A DNA stretch of 64,000 bases. Origin: Plastoroseomonas arctica (lineage in GTDB: Bacteria; Pseudomonadota; Alphaproteobacteria; Acetobacterales; Acetobacteraceae). This document shows, piece after piece, positions 2,913 through 46,058 of the stretch (its first letter is position 1; each line of letters starts with the position of its first letter). The translations under genes and the position numbers were made by a program. The stretch spans positions 1 through 64,000 of the forward strand of contig NZ_JAAEDH010000002.1 in NCBI RefSeq assembly GCF_018128965.1. Direction: 5' to 3'. A model generated the notes under the pieces. The model was given only the letters and a program-made list of their open reading frames with translations. It was not told where the DNA came from and did not search any database.

Positions 2913-3997
2913 TCTTCAATCTGCTTGCGCCCTTCGCCGAAGGGTTCCCGCTGTTCAACCTGATCCGCTACACGACCTTCCGCGCGGGTGCCGCCTGCCT
3001 CACCGCGCTGATCATCGCGCTGTTCTTCGGGCCCTCGATCATTCGTTGGCTGCGCGCGCGCCAGCGCGGCGGCCAGCCGATCCGTGAGGATGGGCCGGCG
3101 AGCCACCTCATCACCAAGAAGGGCACGCCCACCATGGGCGGGGTGCTGATCCTGCTCGCACTCGCGGGATCGACCCTGCTGTGGGCGGACCTGCGCAACG
3201 GCTTCGTCTGGTGCGTGATGATGGTCACGCTGGGCTATGGCGCGCTGGGCTTCGCCGACGACTTCCTCAAGGTCACCAAGCGCAACACCAAGGGCGTCTC
3301 GGGCCGCATGAAGCTGATCGCGCAGGCGGGGCTCGGCCTGGTCGCCGCGATCTGGCTCAGCTACCTGATGCCCGGTCCGCTGTCGGACAAGCTGGCCATG
3401 CCGGTGTTCAAGGAAGTGCTGATCCCGCTGGGGATCCTGTTCCCGCTGCTGGCGACGCTTGTGATGATGGGCGCCTCCAACGCCGTGAACCTCACCGACG
3501 GGCTGGACGGCCTGGCCATCGTGCCGGCGATGATCGCGGCGGCGGTCTTCGCGCTGATCGCCTACCTGGTCGGCAACCGCATCTTCGCGGACTACCTGCA
3601 GCTGCACGCGGTGCCTGGCACCGGGGAGCTCGCCGTCTTCGCCTCGGCAATGATCGGGGCGAGCCTCGGCTTCCTGTGGTTCAACGCGCCGCCGGCCGCG
3701 GTGTTCATGGGCGATACCGGTTCGCTCGCGCTGGGCGGCGCGCTGGGCGCGCTCGCGGTCGCGACCAAGCATGAGATCGTGCTGGCCATCGTGGGCGGGT
3801 TGTTCGTGGTGGAGACGGTGTCCGTCATCGTCCAGGTGTTCTGGTACAAGCGCACCGGCAAGCGGGTGTTCCTGATGGCGCCGCTGCACCATCATTTCGA
3901 GAAGAAGGGCTGGGCCGAACCCACCATCGTGATCCGCTTCTGGATCATCGCGATGATCCTGGCGCTGGTCGGCTTGTCCACGTTGAAGATCCGGTGA
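2909..3997 (+). CDS. mraY: Phospho-MurNAc-pentapeptide transferase (lipid I synthase)
   Basis: MraY is the integral membrane enzyme that moves phospho-MurNAc-pentapeptide from UDP to undecaprenyl phosphate and makes lipid I. The 362-residue protein has about ten hydrophobic segments. Family signatures are visible: [15 protein letters not shown] with its acidic pair, [22 protein letters not shown], and [11 protein letters not shown] near the C-terminus. All catalytic-site aspartates expected for the family are present. It is joined to murF by ATGA and to murD by GTGA, so it is translated from the same coupled message. Confidence 0.96.
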
Positions 3998-5340
3998 CGC
4001 CGTTCGTGGGACAGCGGGTCGCGGTGATGGGTCTGGGCAAGGCCGGCTTCGACGCGGCCAGGCGCCTGCGCGACTGGGGCGCGGATGTGACCGCCTGGGA
4101 TGACTGCGCGGATGCACGCGATCGCGCGGCCGCCGAGGGCCTCACGCTGCGCGATCCGGCCGAGGGGCTGGACGCGGATGCGCTGCTGCTCTCGCCCGGC
4201 ATTCCGCACACACACCCCGTGCCGCATGCGGCCGCGCAGGCCGCGCGAGCCGCTGGCGTTCCCATCCTCTGCGACGTGGAATTCCTGTTCCGCGCGGTCC
4301 GGGCCAGCGGCTCCGAGGCGCGCTTCGTGGGCGTCACCGGCACCAATGGGAAGAGCACCGTGACGGCGCTGATCCACCACATCCTGACCACCGCGGGCCG
4401 GGTGTCCGAGGTTGGCGGCAATCTCGGGCCGCCGGCGCTCGGACTCAACATGTTGTGGCACGAGGGCATCTATACCCTCGAAATGTCGTCCTACATGTTG
4501 GAGCGACTCGCGCGGATGCGCTTCAACACAGGGGTAATGCTGAACCTTTCCCCCGATCATCTCGACCGCCATGGGAGCATGGCCGGCTATGTCGCTGCGA
4601 AGGCGAATATCTTCGCGCGCCAGGTCGCCGGCGACACCGCGGTGGTCGGGATGGATGACGAGGCCAGCGCCGCGATGGCGCAGGGCCGGGCGGGTTTCGT
4701 GCGCCGAATTTCGGCGACCACGCGCCAGCCAGGCGGCGTCTGGTGCGACGATGGCGTGCTGCGCGATGAGGAGGGCGCGTTCTGCGACCTGCGCGAGGCG
4801 CGCGCCTTGCCCGGCGCGCACAATGCGCAGAACGCCGCCGCCGCCGCCGCCGCCTGCCTGGCACTCGACGTGCCGCGCGCGGCCATCGCGGCGGGGGTGC
4901 TCAGCTACCCCGGCCTGCCTCACCGGCTCGAGCGCGTGGCCGAGTTCGGCGGCGTCGCCTGGATCAACGACAGCAAGGCCACGAATGCCGACAGCGCCGC
5001 GCGCGCCCTGGCCAGTTATGACCGCGTCGCCTGGATCGTGGGGGGCATCGCGAAGGATGGCGGCATCGAGAGCCTCGCGCCGTGGCTTGGCCGCGTCGCG
5101 AAGGCCTATCTGATCGGGCGCGACGCGCCGCTCCTCGCCGCGACGCTGGCGCGCCACGGCGTGCCGCACGCGGTGGTCGGCGACCTCGCCAGCGCCATTG
5201 CCGCCGCCCATGCCGAGGCTGCCGCGCCGGTGGTGCTGCTCTCGCCGGCCTGCGCCAGCTGGGACCAGTTCCCGGGCTTCGACGCGCGCGGCGATGCGTT
5301 CCGCGCCCAGGTCCTCGCACTCGCCGGGGGGGCGCGCTGA
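3994..5340 (+). CDS. murD: UDP-MurNAc-L-Ala:D-Glu ligase
   Basis: MurD is the cytoplasmic ligase that adds D-glutamate to UDP-MurNAc-L-alanine. It has 448 residues. An N-terminal Rossmann-like glycine motif ([15 protein letters not shown]) is followed by the P-loop TGTNGKST near residue 115, and by the C-terminal segment [16 protein letters not shown] that is typical of MurD. The start is GTG at 3994, overlapping the mraY stop as GTGA; no in-frame ATG lies close by that would keep the nucleotide-binding N-terminus. The next gene, ftsW, begins at the last base of its stop codon. Confidence 0.94.
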
Positions 5341-6482
5341 TGGCCGCCTTCTCGCGCAGCGATGATTCGACCCTCGGCCGCTGGTGGTGGACCGTAGATC
5401 GCTGGACGCTCTCGGCGCTGATGGCGCTGATCGCGATCGGCTATGTGATGATGCTCGCGGCGTCGCCGGCGGTGGCCGAGCGCATCGGCACCTCCTCGCG
5501 CCACAGCTTCTTCATCAAGCAGGTGGCCTACCTGGCACTCGCGGCCACGGTCATGGTGGTTGTCTCGCTGCTCTCGCCCAAGAACATCCGAAGGCTCGCG
5601 CTGCTCGGCTTCGCCGGCGCGCTGGTGGCCACGGCGGCGACGCTCGTGATCGGCGTCGAGATCAAAGGTGCGCGCCGCTGGCTGCCGATCCCCTTCCTGT
5701 CGCTGCAGCCTTCGGAATTCCTCAAGCCGTGCTTCGCGGTGGTGGCGGCCTGGCTGATCGCGGAAGGCCGCGCGCCGGGCAGCAAGCTGCCGGGAATGAT
5801 CATCACGCTGTGCCTGTTCGCGATCGTCGGGCTGATCCTGAAGCAGCAGCCGGATATCGGCATGCTGTTCGTCGTGACCGTGGTGCTGTTCGCACAGATT
5901 TTCGTCGCCGGGATCAACCTGTTCGTCGTCGGTGGAGCGGGGGCGCTCGCGGTCGGGCTGGGCGCGGTCGTCTACCTCACCCGCCAGCATGTGCGCGACC
6001 GCGTGGCGGCCTTCCTCAGCCCGGTCTGCAATGACCGCGAGAACTACCAGATCTGCACCGCGCTCGAGGCCTTCGGCAATGGCGGGCTGCTCGGCCGCGG
6101 CCCCGGCGAGGGAAGGCTGAAGAACGTGCTGCCCGACGCGCATGCCGATTTCGTCTTCGCCGTCGCCGGCGAGGAATTCGGCATGGTGGTGTGCCTGGTC
6201 ATCTTGGGGCTGTTCCTGTTCGTGGTGGTGCGCGGCTTGCTGAAGCTGCTGAGCGAGAGCGACCTGTTCGTGGTGCTCGCGGCCGCGGGGCTGCTCACGC
6301 AGTTCGGCCTGCAGGCCTTCATCAACATGGCCTCCACCCTGCACCTGATCCCGACCAAGGGCATGACGCTGCCCTTCGTGAGCTATGGCGGGTCCTCGGT
6401 GATCGCGATCGCGCTGGGGATGGGAATGCTGCTCGCACTCACCCGCCGCCGCGTGACGCGCAGTTCCGGGGCGGAGGCGTGA
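5340..6482 (+). CDS. ftsW: Septal peptidoglycan glycosyltransferase FtsW (SEDS family)
   Basis: FtsW polymerises lipid II into glycan strands at the division site, together with FtsI. The 380-residue protein is mostly transmembrane segments. SEDS landmarks are visible: SLQPSEFLKP, KQQPDIGM and, near the end, PFVSYGGSSVIAIALGMG. The ATG at 5340 uses the last base of the murD stop (TGATG). An upstream extension in the same frame runs antiparallel to no known domain and is simply murD sequence in another frame, so I discarded it. The gene sits between murD and murG, as in most proteobacterial dcw clusters. Confidence 0.94.
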   Translation: MAAFSRSDDSTLGRWWWTVDRWTLSALMALIAIGYVMMLAASPAVAERIGTSSRHSFFIKQVAYLALAATVMVVVSLLSPKNIRRLALLGFAGALVATAATLVIGVEIKGARRWLPIPFLSLQPSEFLKPCFAVVAAWLIAEGRAPGSKLPGMIITLCLFAIVGLILKQQPDIGMLFVVTVVLFAQIFVAGINLFVVGGAGALAVGLGAVVYLTRQHVRDRVAAFLSPVCNDRENYQICTALEAFGNGGLLGRGPGEGRLKNVLPDAHADFVFAVAGEEFGMVVCLVILGLFLFVVVRGLLKLLSESDLFVVLAAAGLLTQFGLQAFINMASTLHLIPTKGMTLPFVSYGGSSVIAIALGMGMLLALTRRRVTRSSGAEA

Positions 6483-6490
6483 GGGGCCCC

Positions 6491-7603
6491 GTGGCACGTC
6501 CGATCGTCATCGCCGCCGGGGGCACCGGCGGGCATCTGTTCCCCGCCGAGGCGCTCGCGGTGGCGCTGATCGCGCGCGGTGAGCGGATCGCGCTGATGAC
6601 CGATGCGCGCAGTGCCGCCTTCGACAGCCCGGCCTTCGCCAATGCGGAGCGCTTCGCCCTGGCCGGCGCGGGGCTTTCGGGGCGCGGCTTGGTGTCGGCC
6701 GTTCGCGGTGCCGCCGCACTTGTCGCCGGCACCTTCGCCGCGCGGCGGCTGTTCAAGCGCCTGGATGCGAGCGCGGTGGTGGGCTTCGGCGGCTATCCCT
6801 CCGTCCCGCCGCTGATGGCAGCGTCGCTGATGCCGTCGGCGCGCAGGCCGGCGATGATCCTGCATGAGCAGAATGCCGTACTCGGCCGTGCCAACCGGGC
6901 GCTCGCGACGCGCGCCGATCTGATCGCGCTCTCCTTCGCCGGCACGCGCTCGGTGCCCGAGGGCACGCGCGCCGAGGTCGTGGGCAACCCGGTGCGCCCC
7001 GCGCTCGCGGCGCTGTCGGGGGCTGGCTATTCTCTGCCCGATGGCGCGCTGCGGCTGCTGGTCACCGGCGGCAGCCTCGGTGCGCGGGTTTTTGCCGATG
7101 TGGTGCCCGAGGCGGTTGCACTGCTGCCCGAGGCGTTGCGCGCGCGCCTGGTCGTCACGCAGCAGGCCCGCGCCGAGGATTTCTCCCGCACGCGGGATGC
7201 CTATTCGGCGCTCGGCATCCCCGCCGAGGTCTCGGCCTTCTTCCCCGACATCGCGAACCGGCTGTCGATGGCGCATCTGGTCGTCGCGCGCGCCGGCGCA
7301 TCGACCATCGCGGAGCTCGCCTGCGCGGGGCGGCCGGCCATCCTGGTGCCGCTGCCGCACGCGATCGACGACCACCAGAGTGCGAATGCGCGCGCGCTGG
7401 AGCACGCCGGTGCCGCCGTGGTCATGCCGCAGCCCCGCTTCACGGCCGAGGCGCTGGCCGAACTGCTGAGCGAGCTGCTGGCCGATGCCGGGCGCCTCGC
7501 GCGCATGGCGGGTGCCGCGCAGCCGCTGGCGCGCCCCGATGCGGCGAGCGTGCTGGCGGACCGGGTGCAGGCGTTGATCGCCGCGAGAGCGGAGGCAAGC
7601 TGA
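6491..7603 (+). CDS. murG: Lipid II synthase (GlcNAc transferase MurG)
   Basis: MurG is the membrane-associated GT-B glycosyltransferase that adds GlcNAc to lipid I. Motifs are clear: [10 protein letters not shown] at the N-terminus, VTGGSLGAR in the middle, and [19 protein letters not shown] followed by [12 protein letters not shown], the UDP-GlcNAc site. Two GTG starts are possible. I prefer 6491, because GAGG at 6481-6484 is well spaced before it. The alternative at 6479 overlaps the ftsW stop (GTGA) but has its GGAGG only one base upstream. Either choice gives 370-374 residues, normal for the family. Confidence 0.94.
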
Positions 7604-9042
7604 TGCGCGCGCTGCCGCTCGACATCGGGGCCATCCATTTCGTCGGCATCGGCGGCATCGGCATGTCCGGCATCGCGGAGGTGCTGCACAATCTCGGCTA
7701 CCGCGTGCAAGGCAGCGACATCGCCGAGGGTGCCAATGTGCAGCGCCTGCGCGCTGCCGGGATCGCCGTCACCGTGGGCCATGCGGCGGCCAATCTCGGC
7801 GAGGCGCAGGTGGTGGTCACCTCCACCGCGGTGAAGCGCGACAATCCCGAGGTCGTCGCGGCGCGGCAAAAATTCATTCCGGTGGTGCGCCGCGCCGAGA
7901 TGCTCGCCGAGCTGATGCGGCTGAAATGGTCGATCGCGATCGGCGGCACCCATGGCAAGACGACCACGACCAGCCTGGTCGCGACGGTGCTGGAAGCGGC
8001 CAAGATCGACCCGACCGTGATCAATGGCGGCATCATCAATGCCTATGGCACGAACACGCGCCTGGGCGCAGGCGACTGGATGGTGGTGGAGGCCGATGAG
8101 AGCGACGGCAGCTTCCTCAAACTGCCCGCCGTGGTCGCAGTCGTCACCAACATGGACCCCGAGCACCTGGACCATTGGGGCACCGGCGAGGCGATGAAGG
8201 AGGGCTTCTACCAGTTCGTCTCGAACATCCCCTTCTACGGCTTCGCGGTGCTGTGCATGGACCACCCGGAGGTGCAGGCGATGATCCCGCGCCTGGCCGA
8301 CCGGCGCCTCATCACCTACGGCTTCTCGCCCCAGGCCGATGTGCGGGCGGAGCGCATGATCTCCGACCGCATGGGGGCCACCTTCGAAGTGGTGGTGAGC
8401 GATCGCGCGACGCGGCGCTCGCGCATGCTCAAGCCCTTCCGGCTGCCGATGCTCGGCGCGCACAACGTGGCCAATGCGCTGGCCGCCATCGCGATCGGCG
8501 TCGAGATGGACGTGCATGAGGATGTGATCCGCTCGGCACTCGCGGGCTTCAAGGGCGTGAAGCGGCGCTTCACGCGCACCGGTGAATCGGGGGGCATCAC
8601 CGTCATAGACGATTACGGGCACCATCCGGTGGAGATCGCGGCGGTGCTGAAGGCGGCGCGGCAGGCCGGCGCGCGCGACGTGATCGCGGTGGTGCAGCCG
8701 CACCGTTACAGCCGCCTCGCGACGCTGTTCGAGGAATTCTGCCAGTGCATGAATGACGCGGGCACGGTGATCGTGGCCGACGTCTACGCCGCCGGCGAAG
8801 CGCCCATCGAGGGCATCGACAAGGACGGGCTGGTCGAGGGTCTGCGTTCGCACGGGCACCGCTCCGTGGTGCCGCTGCCGGGGCCGGAGAGCCTGGCGGA
8901 AATGGTCAACGCCATCGCCAAGGCCGGCGACTACGTGGTGTGCCTGGGTGCCGGCACGATCACCAACTGGGCGCATGCGTTGCCGGCCCAGTTGACCGCG
9001 CTGCAGACGCGCAAGCCTGCCCGTCCGGGTGGTGGGGCGTGA
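7603..9042 (+). CDS. murC: UDP-MurNAc:L-alanine ligase
   Basis: MurC carries out the first amino-acid addition to UDP-MurNAc in the cytoplasm. The 479-residue protein starts with the Rossmann-like [16 protein letters not shown] segment. It has the P-loop [12 protein letters not shown] near residue 115, then EADESDGSF and [10 protein letters not shown], both typical of Mur[11 protein letters not shown] and QPHRYSR in the C-terminal domain are also family signatures. Its ATG uses the last base of the murG stop, and the murB ATG uses the last base of its own stop, so expression is coupled on both sides. Confidence 0.96.
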
Positions 9043-36960: not shown

Positions 36961-37014
36961 ACAAAGATAAAAGATGGGGGTCTGGGGGAATTCTTTCCCC
37001 CATGCTTGCTTTCT
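36961..37014 (-). repeat. Dispersed palindromic element, copy 2 (inverted)
   Basis: The palindrome TGGGGGAATTCTTTCCCCCA is at 36983-37002. Read on the minus strand the order is AGAAAGCAAGCA, palindrome, GACCCCCATC, then a tail CTTTTATCTTTGT, which matches copies 3 and 4. It begins right after the pheS stop codon. Together with copy 1 it forms a long inverted repeat over 36879-37014, with a small near-palindrome (CTGGCTGCGCAACCAG) in the centre. Confidence 0.8.
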
Positions 37015-38096
37015 TAAACACCCTCGGCCAGCGAGGCCGGCGCCAGCGGATCGCTTGCGTAATGCCGCAGCCACCGGACATCCGCCTCGTAGAAGGGCCG
37101 CAGGTCGGCCATGCCGTGCTTGAGCATGGTGATGCGCTCGATCCCCATTCCGAAGGCGAACCCCTGCCACTCGCGCGGGTCGAGCCCGACATTGGCCAGC
37201 ACGCGCGCGTGCACCATCCCGCTGCCCAGGATTTCCAGCCAGTCGGACCCCTTGCCGATCTCGCCCGTCTTCCGGTTCCAGCCGATATCGACTTCCATCG
37301 AGGGTTCGGTGAACGGGAAGTAGCTCGCGCGGAAGCGCACCGGCAGGTCCGCCACCGCGAAGAAGGCGCGCAGGAAATCGACCAGGCAGCCCTTCAGGTG
37401 CGCGAGCGTGATGCTGCGGTCGATCACCAGCCCCTCCACCTGGTGGAACATCGGCGAATGCGTCGCGTCATGGTCGGCGCGCCAGGTGCGACCCGGGGCG
37501 ATGATGCGGATGGGCGGTTCGCCCTTGAGCATGGTGCGGATCTGCAGCGGGCTGGTCTGGGTGCGCAGGACGATCTGATGCCCATCCGCGTCGCGGCCGG
37601 GCAGGTAGAAGGTGTCGTGGTCCTGGCGCGCGGGATGGTGCTCGGGAATGTTGAGGGCCGAGAAATTGTGCCAGTCGGACTCGATGTCGGGCCCGTCCAC
37701 GACGGAAAAACCCATGGCGCCGAAGATCCCCGTCAGCTCCTCGATGGTGCGGCTGATCGGATGGATGCCGCCGTCTCCCGCGCCTGCCGGCGGTGATGGC
37801 CGCGGCGGCAAGGTGACGTCGATGCGCTCGGCGGCCAGGCGCGCGTCCAGTGCCGCATCCTCGAGCGTCGCACGGCGGGCGTCGAGCGCGCCTTCGATCG
37901 CGGCCTTGAGGGCATTGATCGCCGCGCCGCGTTCCTTGCGCTGGGCCGGCTCCACCGTGCCGAGTGACTTCAGCAGCGCGGTGACGCTGCCCGCCTTGCC
38001 CAAGGCCGCGACCCGCACCGCGTCGAGCGCGCGGAGATCGGCGGCGGCCGCGATCGCGGCAAGGGTTTCGGAACGGATCGTATCATCGGCGAGCAT
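37014..38096 (-). CDS. pheS: Phenylalanyl-tRNA synthetase, alpha subunit
   Basis: PheS is the catalytic class II subunit. The 360-residue protein starts with a coiled-coil arm at about residues 1-95 that binds tRNA. Class II motif 2 is [23 protein letters not shown], shown here in two parts around residue 200; motif 3 is [17 protein letters not shown] near the C-terminus. [17 protein letters not shown] contains the conserved HP before the catalytic core. The start is ATG at 38096, since the upstream frame is Arg/Pro-rich and lacks coding character. In most related genomes rplT lies directly upstream; here a seven-kilobase plus-strand block intervenes. Confidence 0.95.
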
Positions 38097-38271
38097 GGCG
38101 GCGACCTCGAGGCGGGCGGAGACGGTAAGACAATGGTTTTCCCCCCGATGCAACCGGGGGCACGCGGAAACGCACGCATGACGGCTTCGCGGCAGGCGCG
38201 GGCGCGGTCTATCGTGACCCGCCGGGCGCGAACCCGGCCGGCGTGCGGGGGGCGCGCCAGGAAGGGGTGGG

Positions 38272-39471
38272 ATGCGGGTCGAGGGAAAACTGCAGCTGTT
38301 GCTCGTCGCACTCGGCGCGATGTTCCTGCAGCAGACCTTCGCCGCGCTGGGGCGCAACATGCCGCCGATCATCGCCCCGGCCATCCTGGACGACCTGGCG
38401 CTCGATCCCGCCTGGCTCGGCGTCTATGTCGGGCTCGGGGCCGCGGCGGCCCTGGTGTTCCAGCTCGGCTGCGGCAGCTTCATCATCCGCTACGGCGCGC
38501 TGCGCACCAGCCAGGCGGCGCTGGTCATGCTCGGAGCCGGGCTGGCCGCGGCCGCAGCGGGACCGCTGGCGTTCTTCGCCATCTCGGCGGTGATCGGCGG
38601 CGGCGGATCGGCGGTTTCCACGCCCGCGAGCTCGCACCTGCTGGGGCGGTACTCGCCGCCGCGACAGGCGCCGCTGGTGTTCTCGATCAAGCAGACCGCG
38701 GTGCCGGCGGGGCTGCTGCTGGCAGGGCTGCTCGGGCCGCTGATGACGCTGTGGTGGGGCTGGCGCGGCGCGCTGCTGGCCGGCGGCGCCGCCTGCGTGG
38801 TGTTCGCGGTGATGCTGCAGCCGCTGCACGCCGAGTTCGACGCCGACCGCGACCCCACGCGCAGCTTCCGCTTCTCCGATTTCGCGACGACCCTCGCCGT
38901 GGTGCTGCGGCTGCCGGCGCTGCGGCGGCTGGCCTTCGCCTGCTTCGCGTTCAACGGGCTGCAGACGGTGTTCACCGCCTATTTCGTGACCTACCTGGTC
39001 GCCCTCGGCCATGACTTGGCAGCCGCGGGCTTCGTCTTCTCGATGGCGACGCTGGTCGCGGTGCCCGGACGCATCCTGTGGGGCTGGATCGGCAGCGGCC
39101 CCGCCGAGCCCGGGCAGGTGATGGCCTGGCTCGCACTCGGCATGGCGGCGAGCACCGTGCTGATGGGTCTGTCCGGATCGCATTGGCCGCTCGGGCTGAT
39201 CGGCATCGCCGGGGCCGGACTGAGCCTCACGGCGCTGAGCTGGCACGGCGTGCTGCTGGCCGAGGCGGCGCGGCTCGCGCCCGAGGGGATGCGCGGGGCC
39301 GCGACCGGCGGCGTGCTCTCCTTTGGCCAGACGGGTGCGTTGCTGCTGCCGCTTGCCTTTGCCGGGGTGCTGGTCACGACGGGCAGCTACGCGGCCGGCT
39401 TCATGCTGTGCGGCGTGCCGGCGCTTGCGGTCGGCATCGCGCTGCTGCACGGCGGGACACCGGACCCCTGA
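38272..39471 (+). CDS. MFS transporter
   Basis: This inner-membrane protein of 399 residues has about 12 hydrophobic helices and the two-lobe layout of the major facilitator superfamily. The N-lobe contains [33 protein letters not shown] in two stretches, a pattern seen in CynX/NarK-like or uncharacterised MFS members. There is a cytoplasmic loop between lobes at about residues 190-205 ([16 protein letters not shown]). The substrate cannot be told from sequence. It diverges from pheS across 175 bases and is the first gene of the plus-strand block between pheS and rplT. Confidence 0.82.
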
Positions 39472-39852
39472 CGTGGACCATGTGATCTTCACTATTTTGT
39501 GAGTAAGGCTCGGAAGCCATTACTCGTTTGATACGATCGCGGGGGGAAGGGGGAGTCGCTATGCGCTGTTGCGTTATGGTTCTGGCCAGAGGCCCAGTTG
39601 GACCCTGGCTACGGCAACCAGACAGGCGCGGCGCGCATCCATCGAGACACGCGCGAAGCCTCATCGCGTGACGCACCGATCCATTCTTCACAACCCGTCA
39701 ACGCCTCACGCGACATGTGGCAGTTCGGCCATGCGGGCTTGCAGGCCCGCGCACCGGCCCCAACCTCGCACACGCCTCTCAGACGCGTCTGGACGAGTTG
39801 GCGCCTGGTGGCACCTTGCCACCGGCGCGCTTCGATGACTGGAGACTTTGGT
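39472..39852 (+). other. Gap of 381 bases before the first histidine kinase
   Basis: No convincing gene is seen. The first 80 bases are AT-richer than the region (CACTATTTTGTGAGTAAG, GTTTGATACGAT) and likely hold a promoter, though no clean -35/-10 pair stands out. A 36-codon frame at 39561-39671 begins after a GGGGGAG stretch but has no recognisable product. The kinase reading frame stays open back to 39598, yet that part reads as Arg/Ser/His-rich non-coding translation. Confidence 0.5.
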
Positions 39853-41943
39853 ATGCCGATCGCCCTGCGGGGCCCGGGCGCGTCGGCGCCGCCGGTGGTC
39901 ATGAACGCGCCCGCGCCCCTCTGGCGATGGCGCCCGGATGCCCTGCTCGCCGCCGCCGTCATCCTGCCACTGGTCATCCTCGGTGCCTGCGCGTGGATCG
40001 CCTGGACCGATGCCTGGCGCTCCACCGAGCGGGAGTTGGCCAGTGACGCCGATGCTGTGGCCGAATACGCCTCCAGGGTGCTTGAGGGCCATCGGCTGGC
40101 CGGGGAATTCGCGAACCATCTGCTCCGCGGCCTGTCGGATGACGACATCCGAGAACGCGCGGCGGAGCTGCATCGCGAGCTGAACACCATGCTGCCCTCG
40201 CTCGCCGGGGTGACCACCATCGCCGTCCTCGACCGCGAGGCCGAGATCATGATCCTGGCCAACCTGTTCCCCGTCCCGCCCGGCATCCGGGTGCCGGACC
40301 GCGAGTGGATGCGCGCGCTCAGCGGGCCGGCCGCGCCGCCGCTGCACATCAGCGCCCTGACGACCGGCCGGATCGACGGCAACCTGTTCTTCTCGGTCAG
40401 CCAGCGGCGCACCGGCGCCGGCAACGGGCGCCCGGAAGGCGCCTTCGACGGCGTCATCAGCGTCTCGGTCGATCCCGTCCGGCTCTCCGCCGGCCTCGCC
40501 CAGATCAGCGGCGAGCACGACAATGTCGCCGCGCTCGTCCGCGACGACGGCGCGGTCCTGGCGCGTAGCAGCGGCGTGCCCGGTCTGCTCCCGCAGATCC
40601 CGGAGGACAGCCCCTTGCGCACCGCGGCGCGCGATGGCGTGGCACGGGGCAGCTACATGGGCCGCGCCCTCGGGCCAGAGCGCGAGGTCGGCGAAAGCCG
40701 CCTCATTGCCTTTCGCCGCGTGGCCGGGCTGCCGGTCTATGCCACGGTCGGTCGGCCGACACCGATGATCCTGGCGCGCTGGCGCGGGGTGGTGGCCTCC
40801 CAGCTCGTGATCGGGCTGCCGGCCTGGTTCGCCTTCATCGCGCTCGCCTGGATGCTGCGCGCCGGCCAGCGCGCGCTGGCCGCGGCCAATGCGCAGCTGG
40901 AGCGCCGGGTCGAGGAACGCACGGCCGCCTTGCGGCTCGGCGAGGCGCAGCTGCGCGTGGCCCAGCTCGCCGCGCGCATCGGCACCTGGGTGCTCGACCC
41001 CGACACCGGGGAGGTCGCCTGGTCCGACGAGCAATACGCCCTGTTCGGCCTGAGCCAGGAGCGCGACGGCGGCATGACCTATGCGCGCTTCCTCGACGAG
41101 GTGGTCCATCCCGATGATCGCGAGACCGTCGCGGCGATCGGGGCGGACGCCTTTGCCTCGGGCGAGCTCGACGCCGATTTCCGGGTCTGGCAGCGGCTGC
41201 CCGATGGGCAGCGCCGCGTGCGCTGGGTCACCGGGCGCGGCCGGCGCGTGCCTGGGCCGGACGGCAAGGGCCGGCTGTTCGGCGTGAACGTGGACATCAC
41301 CGAGCGCAAGGATTCCGAGGAACGCCAGCAGCTGCTGATGCATGAGGTGGACCACCGGGCGAAGAACGTGCTCGCCGTTGTACAGGCCGCGCTCCGCATG
41401 ACGCCGAAGGACGACCCGCACGCCTATGCGAACGCCGTGCAGGGGCGCGTCGCCGCGCTCGCGCGCGCGCACGTCCTGCTCGCCGAACGGCGCTGGGCCG
41501 GTGCCTCCCTGCAAGACCTGGTGGCGTCCGAGGTCGCGACGCTGCACCCGGGCGGCGAGGCGCCGCCACCGGATGTGGCGATGCCCCGCGTCGAGGCGCA
41601 TGGACCGGAGGTGACGCTCGCACCGCCTGCCGCCCAGGCCCTGTCGATGGCGCTGCACGAGCTCGCGACGAACGCCACCAAGTATGGCGCGCTCAGCGTC
41701 GCATCCGGGCATCTCAGCGTCACCTGGGATGTCGATCCCGCGTCGGGCCTGCTCGACCTGCGCTGGGTCGAGACCGGCGGGCCACCCATCGCGGCGGTCC
41801 CGGAGCGGCGCGGCTTCGGCTCGCGCGTGATCGAGGCGGCGATCCGCGACCAGCTGGGCGGCAGGTTCGACCGGCAGTGGCGGGCGACCGGGCTCGCCTT
41901 CGTCATCGCGCTGCCGCTGGCGGGCCCCGCGTTGCGCAGCTAG
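39853..41943 (+). CDS. HWE-family membrane sensor histidine kinase with PAS domain
   Basis: This 696-residue kinase senses signals at the membrane. A first transmembrane helix at about residues 30-52 is followed by a periplasmic region of about 260 residues that looks like a double-Cache sensor. A second helix lies at about 312-336, then a short coiled coil and a PAS domain at about 375-485 (IGTWVLDPDTGEVAWSDEQY). The HWE kinase core has the phospho-acceptor His near 501 (DHRAKNVLAVVQ), the N-box His near 602 (LHELATNATKYG) and the WVE motif near 638. I chose ATG 39853, since GGAGA lies eight bases before it. Confidence 0.85.
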   Translation: MPIALRGPGASAPPVVMNAPAPLWRWRPDALLAAAVILPLVILGACAWIAWTDAWRSTERELASDADAVAEYASRVLEGHRLAGEFANHLLRGLSDDDIRERAAELHRELNTMLPSLAGVTTIAVLDREAEIMILANLFPVPPGIRVPDREWMRALSGPAAPPLHISALTTGRIDGNLFFSVSQRRTGAGNGRPEGAFDGVISVSVDPVRLSAGLAQISGEHDNVAALVRDDGAVLARSSGVPGLLPQIPEDSPLRTAARDGVARGSYMGRALGPEREVGESRLIAFRRVAGLPVYATVGRPTPMILARWRGVVASQLVIGLPAWFAFIALAWMLRAGQRALAAANAQLERRVEERTAALRLGEAQLRVAQLAARIGTWVLDPDTGEVAWSDEQYALFGLSQERDGGMTYARFLDEVVHPDDRETVAAIGADAFASGELDADFRVWQRLPDGQRRVRWVTGRGRRVPGPDGKGRLFGVNVDITERKDSEERQQLLMHEVDHRAKNVLAVVQAALRMTPKDDPHAYANAVQGRVAALARAHVLLAERRWAGASLQDLVASEVATLHPGGEAPPPDVAMPRVEAHGPEVTLAPPAAQALSMALHELATNATKYGALSVASGHLSVTWDVDPASGLLDLRWVETGGPPIAAVPERRGFGSRVIEAAIRDQLGGRFDRQWRATGLAFVIALPLAGPALRS

Positions 41944-42039
41944 CCGCGCCGCGTTTTCGTCCCCTGGCACCGGTCGCACAAGGAATGGTGTCGGCCGCGC
42001 AGGCGGCTCGCGACAACTTTCCTGATCCTCCGCCGTTTG

Positions 42040-42068
42040 TTGACACCGAGTGTTACGCGGTGAAGTGT
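42040..42068 (+). promoter_or_regulatory. Possible promoter before the CheB-CheR kinase gene
   Basis: A consensus TTGACA at 42040-42045 is followed after 17 bases by AAGTGT at 42063-42068. The -35 is perfect but the -10 is weak. The pair lies about 45 bases before the preferred GTG start at 42112, inside the 168-base gap after the first kinase gene, so the fusion gene and its response regulator could be transcribed on their own. Confidence 0.4.
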
Positions 42069-42111
42069 CTGGCGCGCGGGCAACGTCGATTATTTGAGTT
42101 CCGGAGGCATT

Positions 42112-45100
42112 GTGCCAGGAGAAGCTTCGCTACTCGACGCGGCGCAAACGAACCTGTTCCCGATCGTGGGCGTGGGCGCGTCGGCCGGCGGCATCGAGGC
42201 GCTGGAAGGCTTCCTGCGCGGCATGCCCGAGCGTCCCGGGGTGGCCATCGTCGTGGTGACCCACCTCAACCGCGAGCGCGAAAGCCTGCTGCCGGAAATC
42301 CTCGGGCGCTTCACCGCGATGCCGGTCCTGCGTGCCGAGCACAGCGTCGAGGTGCGGCCGGACCACGTGTACGTCATGGTCTCGAACACGATCCTGGAGA
42401 TCAAGGACCGCCATCTGCGCGTCGAAGTCGAAGGTGCCGGGCGGAACCACAAGCCGGTCGATGTCTTCTTGAGCGCGCTCGCCATGGACCTTGGGGAATT
42501 GTCGGCGGGCGTGATCCTGTCGGGCGGCGATGGCGACGGCACGCTCGGCATCAAGGCCATCAAGGAGCGTGGCGGGCTGACCATGGCACAGGTCAGCGAC
42601 GGGCACGGGCCGCAGCATCCCAGCATGCCCGAGAGCGCGATCGCCACGGGCCTGGTGGATTTCGCGATCCCGGTCGAGGAGATGGGCCGCAAGCTCAAGG
42701 AGTTCTCGGCCGATACCTCGGGCAACGGGACCACCTCGCCTGCCGCGGTCGCCGATGAGCCCGTGGAACAGCGGATCCCCACCATCTACAGCATCCTGCG
42801 CAACCAGATCGGCCATGATTTCAGCGGCTACAAGACCAAGACCTTTCTCCGCCGCGTCCGCCGCCGCATGCATGTCGGCCGGCTGCCCTCGATCGACGCC
42901 TATGTCGAGCGGCTGCAGCAGGAGCCCGTCGAGGTGGCGGCCCTGTTCCGCGACCTGCTGATCAACGTCACCAGCTTCTTCCGCGATGCCGAGGCGTTCC
43001 GCAGCCTTGCGGAACTGGTCATCCCGAAGCTGTTCGAGAACCGCGGCGCCGATGACAGCGTACGCGTCTGGGTGCCGGGTTGTGCCACGGGCGAGGAGGT
43101 GTTCTCCATCGCCATCCTGTTGCGCGAGCACATGGACACCCTGGCGGCGGCACCGCGGGTGCAGATCTTCGCCACCGACATCGATGAACGCTCGCTGATG
43201 GTCGCGCGCGCCGCGCGGTTCCCCGAGGCGCTGCTCGACGGCGTCTCCGAGGCGCGGCGGAAGCGCTTCTTCATCCCCGATGGCGGCAGCTACGTGATCG
43301 CCAAGGAAGTGCGCGAGCTGTGCATCTTCTCGCCGCACAACATCATCCGCGACCCGCCCTTCTCGCGCATCGACCTGATCTCCTGCCGCAACCTGCTCAT
43401 CTATTTCGGGCCGCAGGTGCAGAACCAGGTCATCCCGACCTTCCACTACGCCCTGCATCCGGGCGGCCGGCTGTTCCTCGGCTCGGCCGAAAACGTCAGC
43501 CAGTATGACGACCTGTTCATTGCGATCGACAAGCGGCACCGCATCTTCCGCCGGCGCTCCGACCGGAGCACCAGCCTTCGGTTGCCGATGCTCATGACCG
43601 CGATGCGCCATGGGGGCGCAACCGACGCGATCATCCGCCGGCCGCAGTCAACCAAGCTCGCGCTGCGCGATGCCGTGGACGTGCAGCTGCTGGAACGCTT
43701 CATGCCGGCGCATGTGGTGGTGAACCGCGATGGCGACGTGCTGAACTTCTCGGGCCATACCGGCAAGTATCTGGAAGCGCCGCCGGGCGCGCCGACGCGC
43801 AACGTGCTCATCATGGCGCGCAAGAGCCTCCGTCTCGACCTGCGCGCCGTGTTCACCGAGGCGGTGGAATCCGGCCGATCGATCACGCGCGACGGCATCG
43901 CGGTCGAGAATGACGACGGCCAGATCCAGGTCATCTCGCTGATCGTGGAGCCGCTCAATCAGTCGCGCATGCCGTCTGAGAATTTCGAGCCGCTTTACCT
44001 CGTGCTGTTCTTCGACCGCGGGCCGCCCTTGAGCCGCGAGGAGGCGCTGGGTCGCGCGAACGCCGCCGATGACGGCGCTGCGGCGCAGATGGAACGCGAG
44101 CTGCGCGACACGCGCGATCGCCTGCAATCGCTGATCGAGGAATACGAGACCGCGATGGAGGATCTCAAATCCGCCAATGAGGAGCTGGTTTCGGTCAACG
44201 AGGAGATGCAATCCACCAATGAGGAGCTCGAAGCCTCGCAGGAGGAGCTGCAGTCGGTGAACGAAGAACTGCAGACCGTGAACGCCGAGCTGCACGACAA
44301 GGTCGACAAGCTCGACCGCGCCAATGCCGACCTGCGCAACCTGTTCGACATCACCGATGTCGCGACCGTCTTCCTCGACCGAAAGCTGGTCATCCGCAGC
44401 TTCACTCCTGCGGTTGGAAAGGTGTTCAACATCCTGCCCACCGATCGCGGGCGCCCCATCACCGACCTCGCGATCAACCTGCGCCTGGCCAATCTCGAGC
44501 GCGATATCGACGAGGTGTTTTCCGGGCGCGGGGCCGTCGAGACGCGTGCCGAACGGGACGACCAGAGGGCGAACTTCCTCATCCGCATCGCGCCCTATCG
44601 CGGCGAGGACCAGCAGATAGACGGCGTGGTCGTGACCTTCATCGACATCACCACGCTGACCCGCGCCGAGGCACGGCAGCGGGTGCTGATCGCCGAGCTG
44701 CAGCACCGCACGCGCAACCTGCTCGCCATCGTGCAGTCGATCGCGCGACGGACGCTGGGCAATGGCGGCTCACTGCCTGATTTCACCGCGCGGCTCGAGG
44801 CGCTGGGCCGGGTGCAGAACCTGGTGAGCGGCGAGACGGAGAATGTGATCGAGCTGCGCGACGTCATCCTGATGGCGCTGAACGCGGTGGCGCCGGGCTT
44901 CGAGGGCAAGGTCCGGCTCACCGGGCCGGCCGTCACCTTGGAGTTCCAGCAGATGCAGACCTTCGCGCTGGCCCTGCATGAACTCTCCAGCAATGCGGTG
45001 AAGCATGGCGCGCTGCGCCCCGGCTCGGGCGAGGTGACGATCACGTGGGAGCTTGAGGGCGTGGACAACCGGGACCAGTTCCTGACGTTCCACTGGCGGG

Positions 45101-45297
45101 AGACTGGGATAGAAGGTATGGCGCGCCCAATTCATCGAGGCTTTGGCACTGAGTTGATCGAACGGGCGAGCGGCTTCACGCGCGATACCGAAGCTCACCT
45201 CGATTTCGGCGAGTCAGGAATCGACTGCCGTATCCGGATGGCCTTGCCGGCCACGGCGGAGCCGCGCGAGATGATGGACGCGGCGGCGCGGCCATGA
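42112..45297 (+). CDS. CheB-CheR-PAS-HWE histidine kinase fusion protein
   Basis: This 1061-residue cytoplasmic protein joins several signalling domains. A CheB methylesterase domain (about 12-195) has the triad-like Ser24 in GASAGG, His51 in THLN and Asp142 in GDGDGT. A CheR methyltransferase (about 220-480) has CheR-N and the SAM motif GCATGEE near 324. A coiled coil at about 660-740 with EELQSVNEELQTVNAEL leads to a PAS domain, then an HWE kinase with His near 865 (LQHRTRNLLAIVQ), N-box His near 956 and WRE near 995. The CheB receiver domain is missing. GTG 42112 follows GGAGG; an upstream TTG at 42094 has no such site. Confidence 0.86.
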   Translation: MPGEASLLDAAQTNLFPIVGVGASAGGIEALEGFLRGMPERPGVAIVVVTHLNRERESLLPEILGRFTAMPVLRAEHSVEVRPDHVYVMVSNTILEIKDRHLRVEVEGAGRNHKPVDVFLSALAMDLGELSAGVILSGGDGDGTLGIKAIKERGGLTMAQVSDGHGPQHPSMPESAIATGLVDFAIPVEEMGRKLKEFSADTSGNGTTSPAAVADEPVEQRIPTIYSILRNQIGHDFSGYKTKTFLRRVRRRMHVGRLPSIDAYVERLQQEPVEVAALFRDLLINVTSFFRDAEAFRSLAELVIPKLFENRGADDSVRVWVPGCATGEEVFSIAILLREHMDTLAAAPRVQIFATDIDERSLMVARAARFPEALLDGVSEARRKRFFIPDGGSYVIAKEVRELCIFSPHNIIRDPPFSRIDLISCRNLLIYFGPQVQNQVIPTFHYALHPGGRLFLGSAENVSQYDDLFIAIDKRHRIFRRRSDRSTSLRLPMLMTAMRHGGATDAIIRRPQSTKLALRDAVDVQLLERFMPAHVVVNRDGDVLNFSGHTGKYLEAPPGAPTRNVLIMARKSLRLDLRAVFTEAVESGRSITRDGIAVENDDGQIQVISLIVEPLNQSRMPSENFEPLYLVLFFDRGPPLSREEALGRANAADDGAAAQMERELRDTRDRLQSLIEEYETAMEDLKSANEELVSVNEEMQSTNEELEASQEELQSVNEELQTVNAELHDKVDKLDRANADLRNLFDITDVATVFLDRKLVIRSFTPAVGKVFNILPTDRGRPITDLAINLRLANLERDIDEVFSGRGAVETRAERDDQRANFLIRIAPYRGEDQQIDGVVVTFIDITTLTRAEARQRVLIAELQHRTRNLLAIVQSIARRTLGNGGSLPDFTARLEALGRVQNLVSGETENVIELRDVILMALNAVAPGFEGKVRLTGPAVTLEFQQMQTFALALHELSSNAVKHGALRPGSGEVTITWELEGVDNRDQFLTFHWRETGIEGMARPIHRGFGTELIERASGFTRDTEAHLDFGESGIDCRIRMALPATAEPREMMDAAARP

Positions 45298-45659
45298 GCG
45301 GCAGGGTCGAACTGGCAGGGCTGCGCATTCTCGTCGTCGAGGATGACTTCTTCATCGCCATGGACATGGCCGAGCTGCTGCGCAGCCATGGCGCCGAGGT
45401 GCTTGGCCCGATCGGCCGCGTGGACGAGGCCGTGGCCTTCGTCGAAGAGCATCATGGAGGGCTGGACGCCGTGGTGCTGGACATGAACCTGCACGGGCTG
45501 AAGACCTACCCCGTCGCCGACGCCCTGATCGAGCAGGGCGTGCCCTTCGTCTTCACCACAGGCTATAGCGCCGATGCCGTGGACCTGGCCTATCGCGAGC
45601 ACCCGCGTTGCGAGAAGCCGGTCAATACCAAGGCGTTGTTGCACGCGCTGACGCGCTGA
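45294..45659 (+). CDS. Single-domain response regulator
   Basis: This 121-residue protein is a receiver domain with no output domain. Acidic residues Asp17 and Asp18 (VVEDDFF), the phospho-acceptor Asp63 (VVLDMNLHG) and the conserved Lys108 (CEKPVNT) are present. Its ATG forms ATGA with the stop of the CheB-CheR kinase gene, so it is very likely the phosphorylation partner of that kinase, and perhaps of the membrane kinase upstream. Stand-alone receivers paired with HWE kinases are common in alphaproteobacteria. The target it controls cannot be read from sequence. Confidence 0.88.
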   Translation: MSGRVELAGLRILVVEDDFFIAMDMAELLRSHGAEVLGPIGRVDEAVAFVEEHHGGLDAVVLDMNLHGLKTYPVADALIEQGVPFVFTTGYSADAVDLAYREHPRCEKPVNTKALLHALTR

Positions 45660-45660
45660 A

Positions 45661-45688
45661 CGGCGCATCTCCTGGCGGAGACGCGCCG
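45661..45688. terminator. Bidirectional hairpin between response regulator and rplT
   Basis: CGGCGCATCTCC and GGAGACGCGCCG pair over 12 positions with one mismatch around the loop TGGC. It occupies most of the 36-base gap between two convergent genes, so it probably ends transcripts from both sides. It marks the downstream border of the plus-strand signalling block. Confidence 0.6.
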
Positions 45689-45695
45689 GTCGAAT

Positions 45696-46058
45696 TCACG
45701 CGGCGGGACGCGCGGTCCGCGCCTGTTCGATCAGCGCCTTGAAGCCGGCCGGATCCTCATAGGCGATCGCCGCCATGACCTTGCGGTCCATCTCGATGCC
45801 CGCCGCCTTCACGCCGGCGATGAACTTCGAATAGGTGAGGCCTTCCTCGCGGACGGCGGCGTTGATGCGCTGGATCCACAGGGCGCGGAAGGCGCGCTTC
45901 TTGTTGCGCCGGTCGCGATAGGCGTATTGCAGCGCCTTCTCGACGCGCTCGAGTGCCGGGCGGTAGGCGTTGTTGGAACGCCCCACATAGCCCTTGGCGA
46001 GGCGGATGATCTTCTTGTGGCGGGCGTGCTTGGTAACGCCGCGTTTGACACGAGCCAT
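45696..46058 (-). CDS. rplT: 50S ribosomal protein L20
   Basis: L20 is a 23S-rRNA-binding protein needed for early 50S assembly. The 120-residue product is basic and has the family sequence from the start: [23 protein letters not shown] in two parts, [26 protein letters not shown], and [24 protein letters not shown]. It follows rpmI by 12 bases on the minus strand, the conserved rpmI-rplT pair. The usual downstream partners pheS and pheT are on the same strand but about 7.6 kb away. Confidence 0.97.

Follow-up and report, generated by a model that had tools for sequence, protein, structure and literature searches.

What do the methylation enzymes of a protein act on when methylesterase, methyltransferase, PAS, and kinase domains are all joined in one chain? 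This question is raised by a gene in the 64,000-nucleotide stretch of DNA analyzed here (the window), for which the initial annotation had proposed a chemotaxis-independent methylation-kinase circuit. On the grounds of conservation and genomic context, we consider it fairly probable that the fusion is a self-contained methyl-accepting sensor kinase, in which its own CheR and CheB would set the methylation of its own coil and hence the gain of the kinase.

The 1061-residue CheB-CheR-PAS-HWE chain described in the initial annotation is borne out by both the open reading frame, which has GGAGG 4 bases 5' of its GTG start, and the Pfam matches (cut-off, E 0.001). The latter comprised CheB at residues 19-195 (E 1.3e-41), CheR_N at 228-272, and CheR at 285-476 (7.9e-50), followed in the C-terminal half by PAS_10 at 741-847 and HWE_HK at 862-939 (E 2.4e-14); the MCP signaling domain (PF00015) was absent from these matches. 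Three parts are absent from the initial annotation, namely a PAS domain at residues 515-635, a Glu-pair coil at residues 681-727, and a second CheB-CheR fusion in the genome. The fusion and its parts are as follows.

42112..45297, plus strand: CheB-CheR-PAS-coil-PAS_10-HWE fusion, a single chain of 1061 amino acids with a GTG start
42166..42696, plus strand: CheB methylesterase (residues 19-195) with an intact S24/H51/D142 and no receiver
42793..43539, plus strand: CheR_N and SAM-binding CheR domains (residues 228-476), motifs intact
43558..43653, plus strand: low-confidence linker between CheR and PAS (about residues 483-514), a possible tether
43654..44016, plus strand: hidden PAS domain (residues 515-635), from the AF2 model and a fold match
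44080..44352, plus strand: single long helix (residues 657-747), from the AF2 model
44152..44292, plus strand: Glu-pair heptad coil (residues 681-727), the proposed methyl-accepting helix
44332..44652, plus strand: PAS_10 domain (residues 741-847), from Pfam
44695..45243, plus strand: HWE kinase with H-box LQHRTRN, comprising the acceptor-His and ATPase parts (residues 862 to about 1044)

To compare the chain with its relatives, genome contigs were queried with the CheB-CheR part only, and the best 80 of 587 loci were kept. According to the names in their records, these best 80 come from many phyla and include two archaeal bins. Alignment of 77 loci with nine members of alignment A1, which include the window protein and its paralogue, gave a set of 86 sequences. 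We also built an AF2 model of the full chain (monomer, 49-row alignment, pLDDT 82.2, pTM 0.54). In this model, the CheB domain matched the fold of 3sft (Z 28.7, rmsd 1.8, 182 residues aligned) and the CheR domain that of 5ftw (Z 29.3, rmsd 1.9, 253 aligned). When aligned with solved structures, S24, H51, and D142 fell on the CheB residues and R291 on the arginine of the CheR FFR motif, all four of which have catalytic roles. The Ser-His-Asp triad and fold of a CheB methylesterase are present, and so are CheR_N and a SAM-binding domain with the conserved CheR motifs. The N-terminal receiver of a classical CheB is missing, as had been annotated: CheB begins at residue 19, and no Response_reg or other receiver domain was matched by Pfam in the fusion at E 0.001.

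The motifs of all three activities had been called intact, and this reading holds, since the CheB triad and CheR motifs could be aligned and the acceptor His and ATPase fold of the HWE kinase were matched (5epv_B; Z 19.7, rmsd 4.0, 193 aligned in the AF2 model). Loss of key residues, named in the initial annotation as grounds for refutation, was not seen in the window protein on alignment, and only 10 of the 86 sequences differed from it at any of 25 CheB/CheR positions. Two had a changed triad: L065 at both Ser and His, and L059 with Glu in place of Asp. The fused CheB of L065 (Sphingomonas, 3815-8522) and, as read by eye, that of L008 (Rhizobium, 2977-8036) lack Ser and His, whereas CheR and the coil remain in the chains. 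In both loci a separate CheB gene with GGSAGS and the His and Asp motifs lies directly upstream, which we counted in favor of self-methylation; the two losses may represent one evolutionary event.

Between CheR and PAS_10, the AF2 pLDDT fell below 50 at residues 486-490 and 492-517, and the stretch at residues 477-520 varied from 37 to 65 letters across the 86 sequences. The following hidden PAS domain was modeled alone with a pLDDT of 92.4, and its best listed fold match was the PAS domain 7jl6 (Z 10.2, rmsd 5.9, 102 aligned). Pfam recognized PAS at this position in 12 of 52 alignment members and not in the window protein itself, and a search of PDB sequences gave one weak match, 1j7h (E 0.048). 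Being a monomer with pTM 0.54, the AF2 model does not show CheR in reach of the coil, which we counted against self-methylation.

The coil lies between the hidden PAS and PAS_10 domains. It contains Glu pairs at residues 690/691, 697/698, 704/705, 711/712, and 718/719 in strict heptad register, with a further pair at 676/677, and a small residue stands four positions after the first Glu of a pair, so that the pattern reads E-E-x-x-[A/S/T]. Heptad-spaced Glu pairs with this pattern are what is expected of MCP-type sites, and E/Q pairs in the window coil exceeded shuffled sequences both for heptad spacing (p 0.0002) and for a small residue at +4 (p 0.0004). A coil followed CheR in 77 of the best 80 relatives (of 587); the other three were frames that end earlier, two at contig ends (L050 and L055) and one of 559 amino acids (L043). 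Its length was 47 residues in 81 of the 86 sequences, and the exceptions had 40, 40, and 33 residues (shorter by the whole heptads 7, 7, and 14), 41 (L045), and 38 (L071, apparently frameshifted).

The coil was also the most conserved region among those compared in the 86 sequences, with a mean entropy of 0.77 bits over 47 residues against 1.52 for CheR, 1.61 for CheB, 1.70 for CheR_N, 1.91 for PAS_10, and 2.45 for the middle region. In the five pairs, 845 of 851 cells were Glu, and a small residue occupied +4 in 420 of 424. By heptad position, entropy was 0.04 bits at the first Glu, 0.07 at the second, 0.31 at the Asn, 0.43 at the small residue, and 0.82 at the core Leu, with 1.31 and 1.49 at the two free positions. 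Ordinary coiled coils conserve their core, whereas here the polar Glu and small positions are conserved beyond the hydrophobic core. We also looked for Gln in place of Glu as a signature of deamidation. The 851 cells contained 2 Gln and 2 Asp, so this signature is uninformative, CheB deamidation leaving no trace in the pairs; the upstream pair columns 676/677 and 683/684, where 18 cells were Gln and 13 were Asp, were also non-diagnostic. Many MCP sites have Gln, unlike these five pairs, a difference that we counted against self-methylation.

Chemoreceptor sites follow the consensus E-E-x-x-A-S/T, in which the second Glu is usually methylated (PMC1079850, accessible text), and a spacing of seven places the sites on one face of the helix (PMC2535941, accessible text). 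The helices of Tsr, Tar, and FrzCD, with Glu/Gln pairs seven apart in this consensus, resemble the fusion coil as far as they are covered in the available parts of these two papers. Unlike these receptors, the fusion has no MCP signaling domain and its host genome no CheW match, and the five pairs at 690-719 together with 676/677 lie on one helix with almost no Gln at the five.

The chemoreceptor and CheW genes reported as missing from the window proved to be missing more widely: over the host genome, an assembly of 4.44 Mb in 51 contigs that is 99.02% complete, we obtained 0 matches to MCPsignal (PF00015) and 0 matches to the CheW domain (PF01584), which CheA normally carries. The same genome gave 2 CheR, 2 CheB, and 10 HWE matches, with every CheB and CheR match falling inside one of two fusions, the second of which lies elsewhere in the genome.

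L003 5175-9428 (contig C2), minus strand: second CheB-CheR-coil-PAS fusion of the host genome, 1417 amino acids

Read by eye, the second fusion has a related coil, a HisKA-type motif, two receiver-like stretches, and an HTH-like end, and a coil profile matched only these two fusions in the host genome at E 1e-6. At the genome level, therefore, the proposal of a chemotaxis-independent methylation-kinase circuit is well supported. For the substrate, the initial annotation would turn to methyl-accepting proteins elsewhere in the genome; the evidence points rather to the coil between the PAS domains of the same chain.

We next asked how closely the coil is tied to CheB-CheR, using a phylum sample of 120 genomes in which at most 13 candidates per genome were scored and fusions of 475 bits or more were called long form. 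All 47 long CheB-CheR fusions found had a coil match, 46 of them in the same open frame; the remaining one (G006) had its match in a gene interrupted by a transposase.

L093 3219-8648: fusion gene of the long form, interrupted by a transposase gene of the IS66 family

The next match below the long form (G083, 410 bits) lacks a coil match; its frame of 378 aa stops within CheR. Conversely, the 120 genomes contained 45 strong coil matches (E 1.1e-16 or better), and CheB-CheR accompanied every one, 44 in the same frame and one in the IS66-split gene. Among 51 coil matches in total, the four outside long fusions were a remnant (G051 C33) and three weak matches (1.3e-7 to 4.3e-7) in hybrid kinases.

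Genomes without MCP matches numbered 19 of 120 in the phylum sample and 31 of 100 in a family sample, the 31 including drafts that are 77-100% complete. Four of the 19 and eight of the 31 had modules, judged in the family sample by coil match alone, and these are 11 distinct genomes because G000 is in both samples. Their 14 modules (2 of the host and 12 fetched, the G051 remnant excluded) all kept the CheR motifs and the coil, which we counted for self-methylation, and 13 of the 14 kept the CheB triad (L113 reads GAPGWE). We reject the idea that the module replaces MCPs. Its frequency did not differ in the phylum sample (4/19 without and 28/101 with MCP matches, p 0.78), and in the family sample it was rarer without MCP matches (8/31 versus 35/69, Fisher p 0.028, genome size uncontrolled), the opposite direction, which we counted against self-methylation.

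At the level of sequence, then, the domains, the intact key residues, the conserved Glu-pair heptads, the linkage to CheB-CheR, and the lack of MCP and CheW matches are established. From these we infer a mechanism in which the hidden PAS domain (515-635) would sense a signal, and a dimeric coil would relay it along the long helix to PAS_10 and the HWE kinase, which in turn would phosphorylate the adjoining single-domain receiver. The exposed Glu pairs of the coil would be methylated by the CheR of the chain and demethylated by its CheB, in cis or across the dimer, and this methylation would reset kinase output, as it does in chemoreceptors.

Methylation of a kinase helix has a precedent. RsbM is a CheR-like enzyme. 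In Bacillus cereus, it methylates the S-helix of the sensor kinase RsbK, repressing sigma B (PMC4574943, available sections), so that by analogy the proposed target would again be a signaling helix of a sensor kinase rather than a chemoreceptor. As described in those sections, RsbM is encoded separately and has no cognate methylesterase, and the domain order of RsbK is CHASE3-HAMP-GAF-S-helix-HK-CA-REC, whereas the fusion holds CheB, CheR, coil, and HWE kinase in one chain and has its coil between two PAS domains. The arrangement of RsbK/RsbM, a separate methyltransferase gene by a GAF-S-helix-HK-REC kinase, is thus not that of the fusion. Methylation at Glu pairs is also reported for PhoP, and the title of that paper attributes it to CheR (PMC8546571, accessible part). 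Fusions as such are already known: the initial annotation had said so, and fusions are common in databases, where they go under 'CheR family methyltransferase' or 'chemotaxis protein CheB'. Genes termed cheBR, with CheB and CheR in one gene as here, have been counted in Geobacter, and the available text gives no architecture, substrate, or coil for them (PMC8396549). We found no proposal of an in-chain substrate for CheB-CheR fusions in the literature searched, which covered few subscription papers; what is new here is a concrete substrate candidate within the chain.

The strong conservation of the coil could also reflect docking or kinase signaling rather than methyl acceptance, and to that extent it counts against self-methylation. 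The coil might simply be a dimerizing signal helix under strong structural constraint, with CheB and CheR acting in trans on another protein. It is ordinary for a long coil that joins a PAS domain to a kinase to relay signals, and the conserved Asn and Leu positions suit a coiled coil. In addition, residues 514-1050 of the full model overlap the LOV-helix-PAS-HK layout of the blue-light HWE kinase 6ph4 (Z 17.9 but rmsd 21.0); both share the order sensor domain, helix, PAS, and HWE kinase, with the hidden PAS in place of LOV in the fusion and neither CheB nor CheR in 6ph4. We nevertheless regard this explanation as rather unlikely, because conservation is higher at the Glu and small positions than in the hydrophobic core, the strong coil matches in the 120 genomes go without exception with CheB-CheR, and the module is intact in genomes without MCP matches.

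It is more doubtful still that the coil goes unmethylated and serves to dock CheB and CheR onto a partner, for example the neighboring HWE kinase. Such a kinase is indeed encoded next door, and compact CheB-CheR genes stand beside hybrid kinases (see below), but in its spacing and its small residues the coil matches substrate sites, and the search of the host genome at E 1e-6 found no coil protein besides the two fusions. That CheB and CheR have been kept as SAM- or ligand-sensing folds and are no longer enzymes seems very improbable to us. The CheB serine is lost in L008 (by eye), L065, and L113, which would fit; against this stand the few sequences that differ at key positions, only two of them in the triad, and the separate CheB gene next door in L008 and L065. 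Methylation of the coil by the enzymes of its own chain remains our preferred reading.

The surroundings of the fusion bear on its output. The following genes flank it.

37014-38384, minus strand: pheS (Pfam)
39598..41943, plus strand: second HWE kinase, directly upstream of the fusion (HWE_HK 1.2e-17; PAS_3 below the cut-off)
45294..45659, plus strand: single-domain receiver with PFVFTTGY, overlapping the fusion gene by 4 bases
45696-46058, minus strand: rplT (Pfam)

Phosphotransfer to the linked receiver, which the initial annotation suggested as a check, is plausible from the overlap of the genes, the PFVFTTGY motif, and the relatives, since 15 of the 24 HWE-bearing loci examined are followed by a related receiver; in the same count, for which L015, L082, and L091 were set aside, one receiver was upstream (L008) and eight loci had none in reach. 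FATGUY receivers have the motif PFxFATG(G/Y) and accept phosphate from several HWE kinases (PMC5964349, accessible text). With MrrA and SdrG, as treated there, the window shares an HWE kinase beside a single-domain receiver, but its PFVFTTGY has one mismatch to the motif. The upstream HWE kinase is kept at 72% identity in a same-genus genome, and one such genome (G147, L117) has the order pheS, HWE kinase, fusion, receiver, rplT, as in the window. Genes pheS and rplT usually lie close together; in the window (37014-46058), an MFS gene and three signaling genes lie between them. A link to general stress response output was rejected on the grounds of promoter sites: the EcfG-type motif GGAAC-N15-18-GTT did not occur upstream of the fusion or the kinase gene, and the window had 6 matches with 2.3 expected.

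Outputs varied among relatives. The tails of ten of them carried HWE (2), HisKA-HATPase-receiver (1), further PAS domains (5), or nothing more (2). Downstream of ten chains taken as kinase-less (ten of 14 loci, by Pfam for L064 and L069 and by pattern and length for eight), we found a HATPase-receiver kinase in three cases, GGDEF in three (two with EAL), PAS in two (one with LuxR), and unrelated genes in two. Pattern-based typing of kinases and a pattern survey of the neighboring kinases were insensitive, missing L018 and L082, which are HWE by Pfam, and neither was used for counts. In L064, L072, and L092, a CheB-CheR-PAS-coil-PAS chain taken as kinase-less is followed by GGDEF or GGDEF-EAL genes, a layout that suggests a methyl-tuned c-di-GMP output.

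More broadly, CheB-CheR-PAS-coil-PAS_10 might be a widespread bacterial and archaeal methyl-adaptation cassette with its own methyl-accepting helix, plugged into HWE, HisKA, neighboring kinase, or diguanylate cyclase outputs and bringing receptor adaptation outside chemotaxis in one polypeptide, even without a chemoreceptor; we see the case for this as evenly balanced. If the coil of the chain is the substrate, reversible methylation would be a general adaptation device of sensor kinases rather than a specialty of chemotaxis, and each fusion would be a complete unit of signal, memory, and output that can be tested in one tube.

A compact class of CheB-CheR proteins (open frames of 560-682 aa) has no coil. 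In all six loci fetched, its genes lie beside a hybrid kinase with sensor, GAF, HisKA, HATPase, and receivers. One more kinase of this kind, the seventh (L094, G057), adjoins a lone CheR and is among the three weak coil matches. The linker helices of these kinases are rich in Glu/Gln pairs, and heptad-spaced E/Q pairs were above shuffles in 5 of 7 (p 0.0044 or less). An MCP-like consensus was rejected for them, as in none of the seven did the pair with a small residue exceed shuffles, which we counted against self-methylation. It is possible that the compact CheB-CheR and hybrid kinase form a trans version of kinase methylation. The compact class in L099-L104, beside a sensor-GAF-HisKA-REC-REC kinase, shows the varied CheB motifs GGSADS, GGSTDS, GGSTGS, and GGSAGS. 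Truncated remnants that keep PAS_10-like sequence, their start lying within the coil or at its end, occur in L012 (3004-3989) and L095 (3939-4694, minus strand), and that of L012 also keeps a kinase part.
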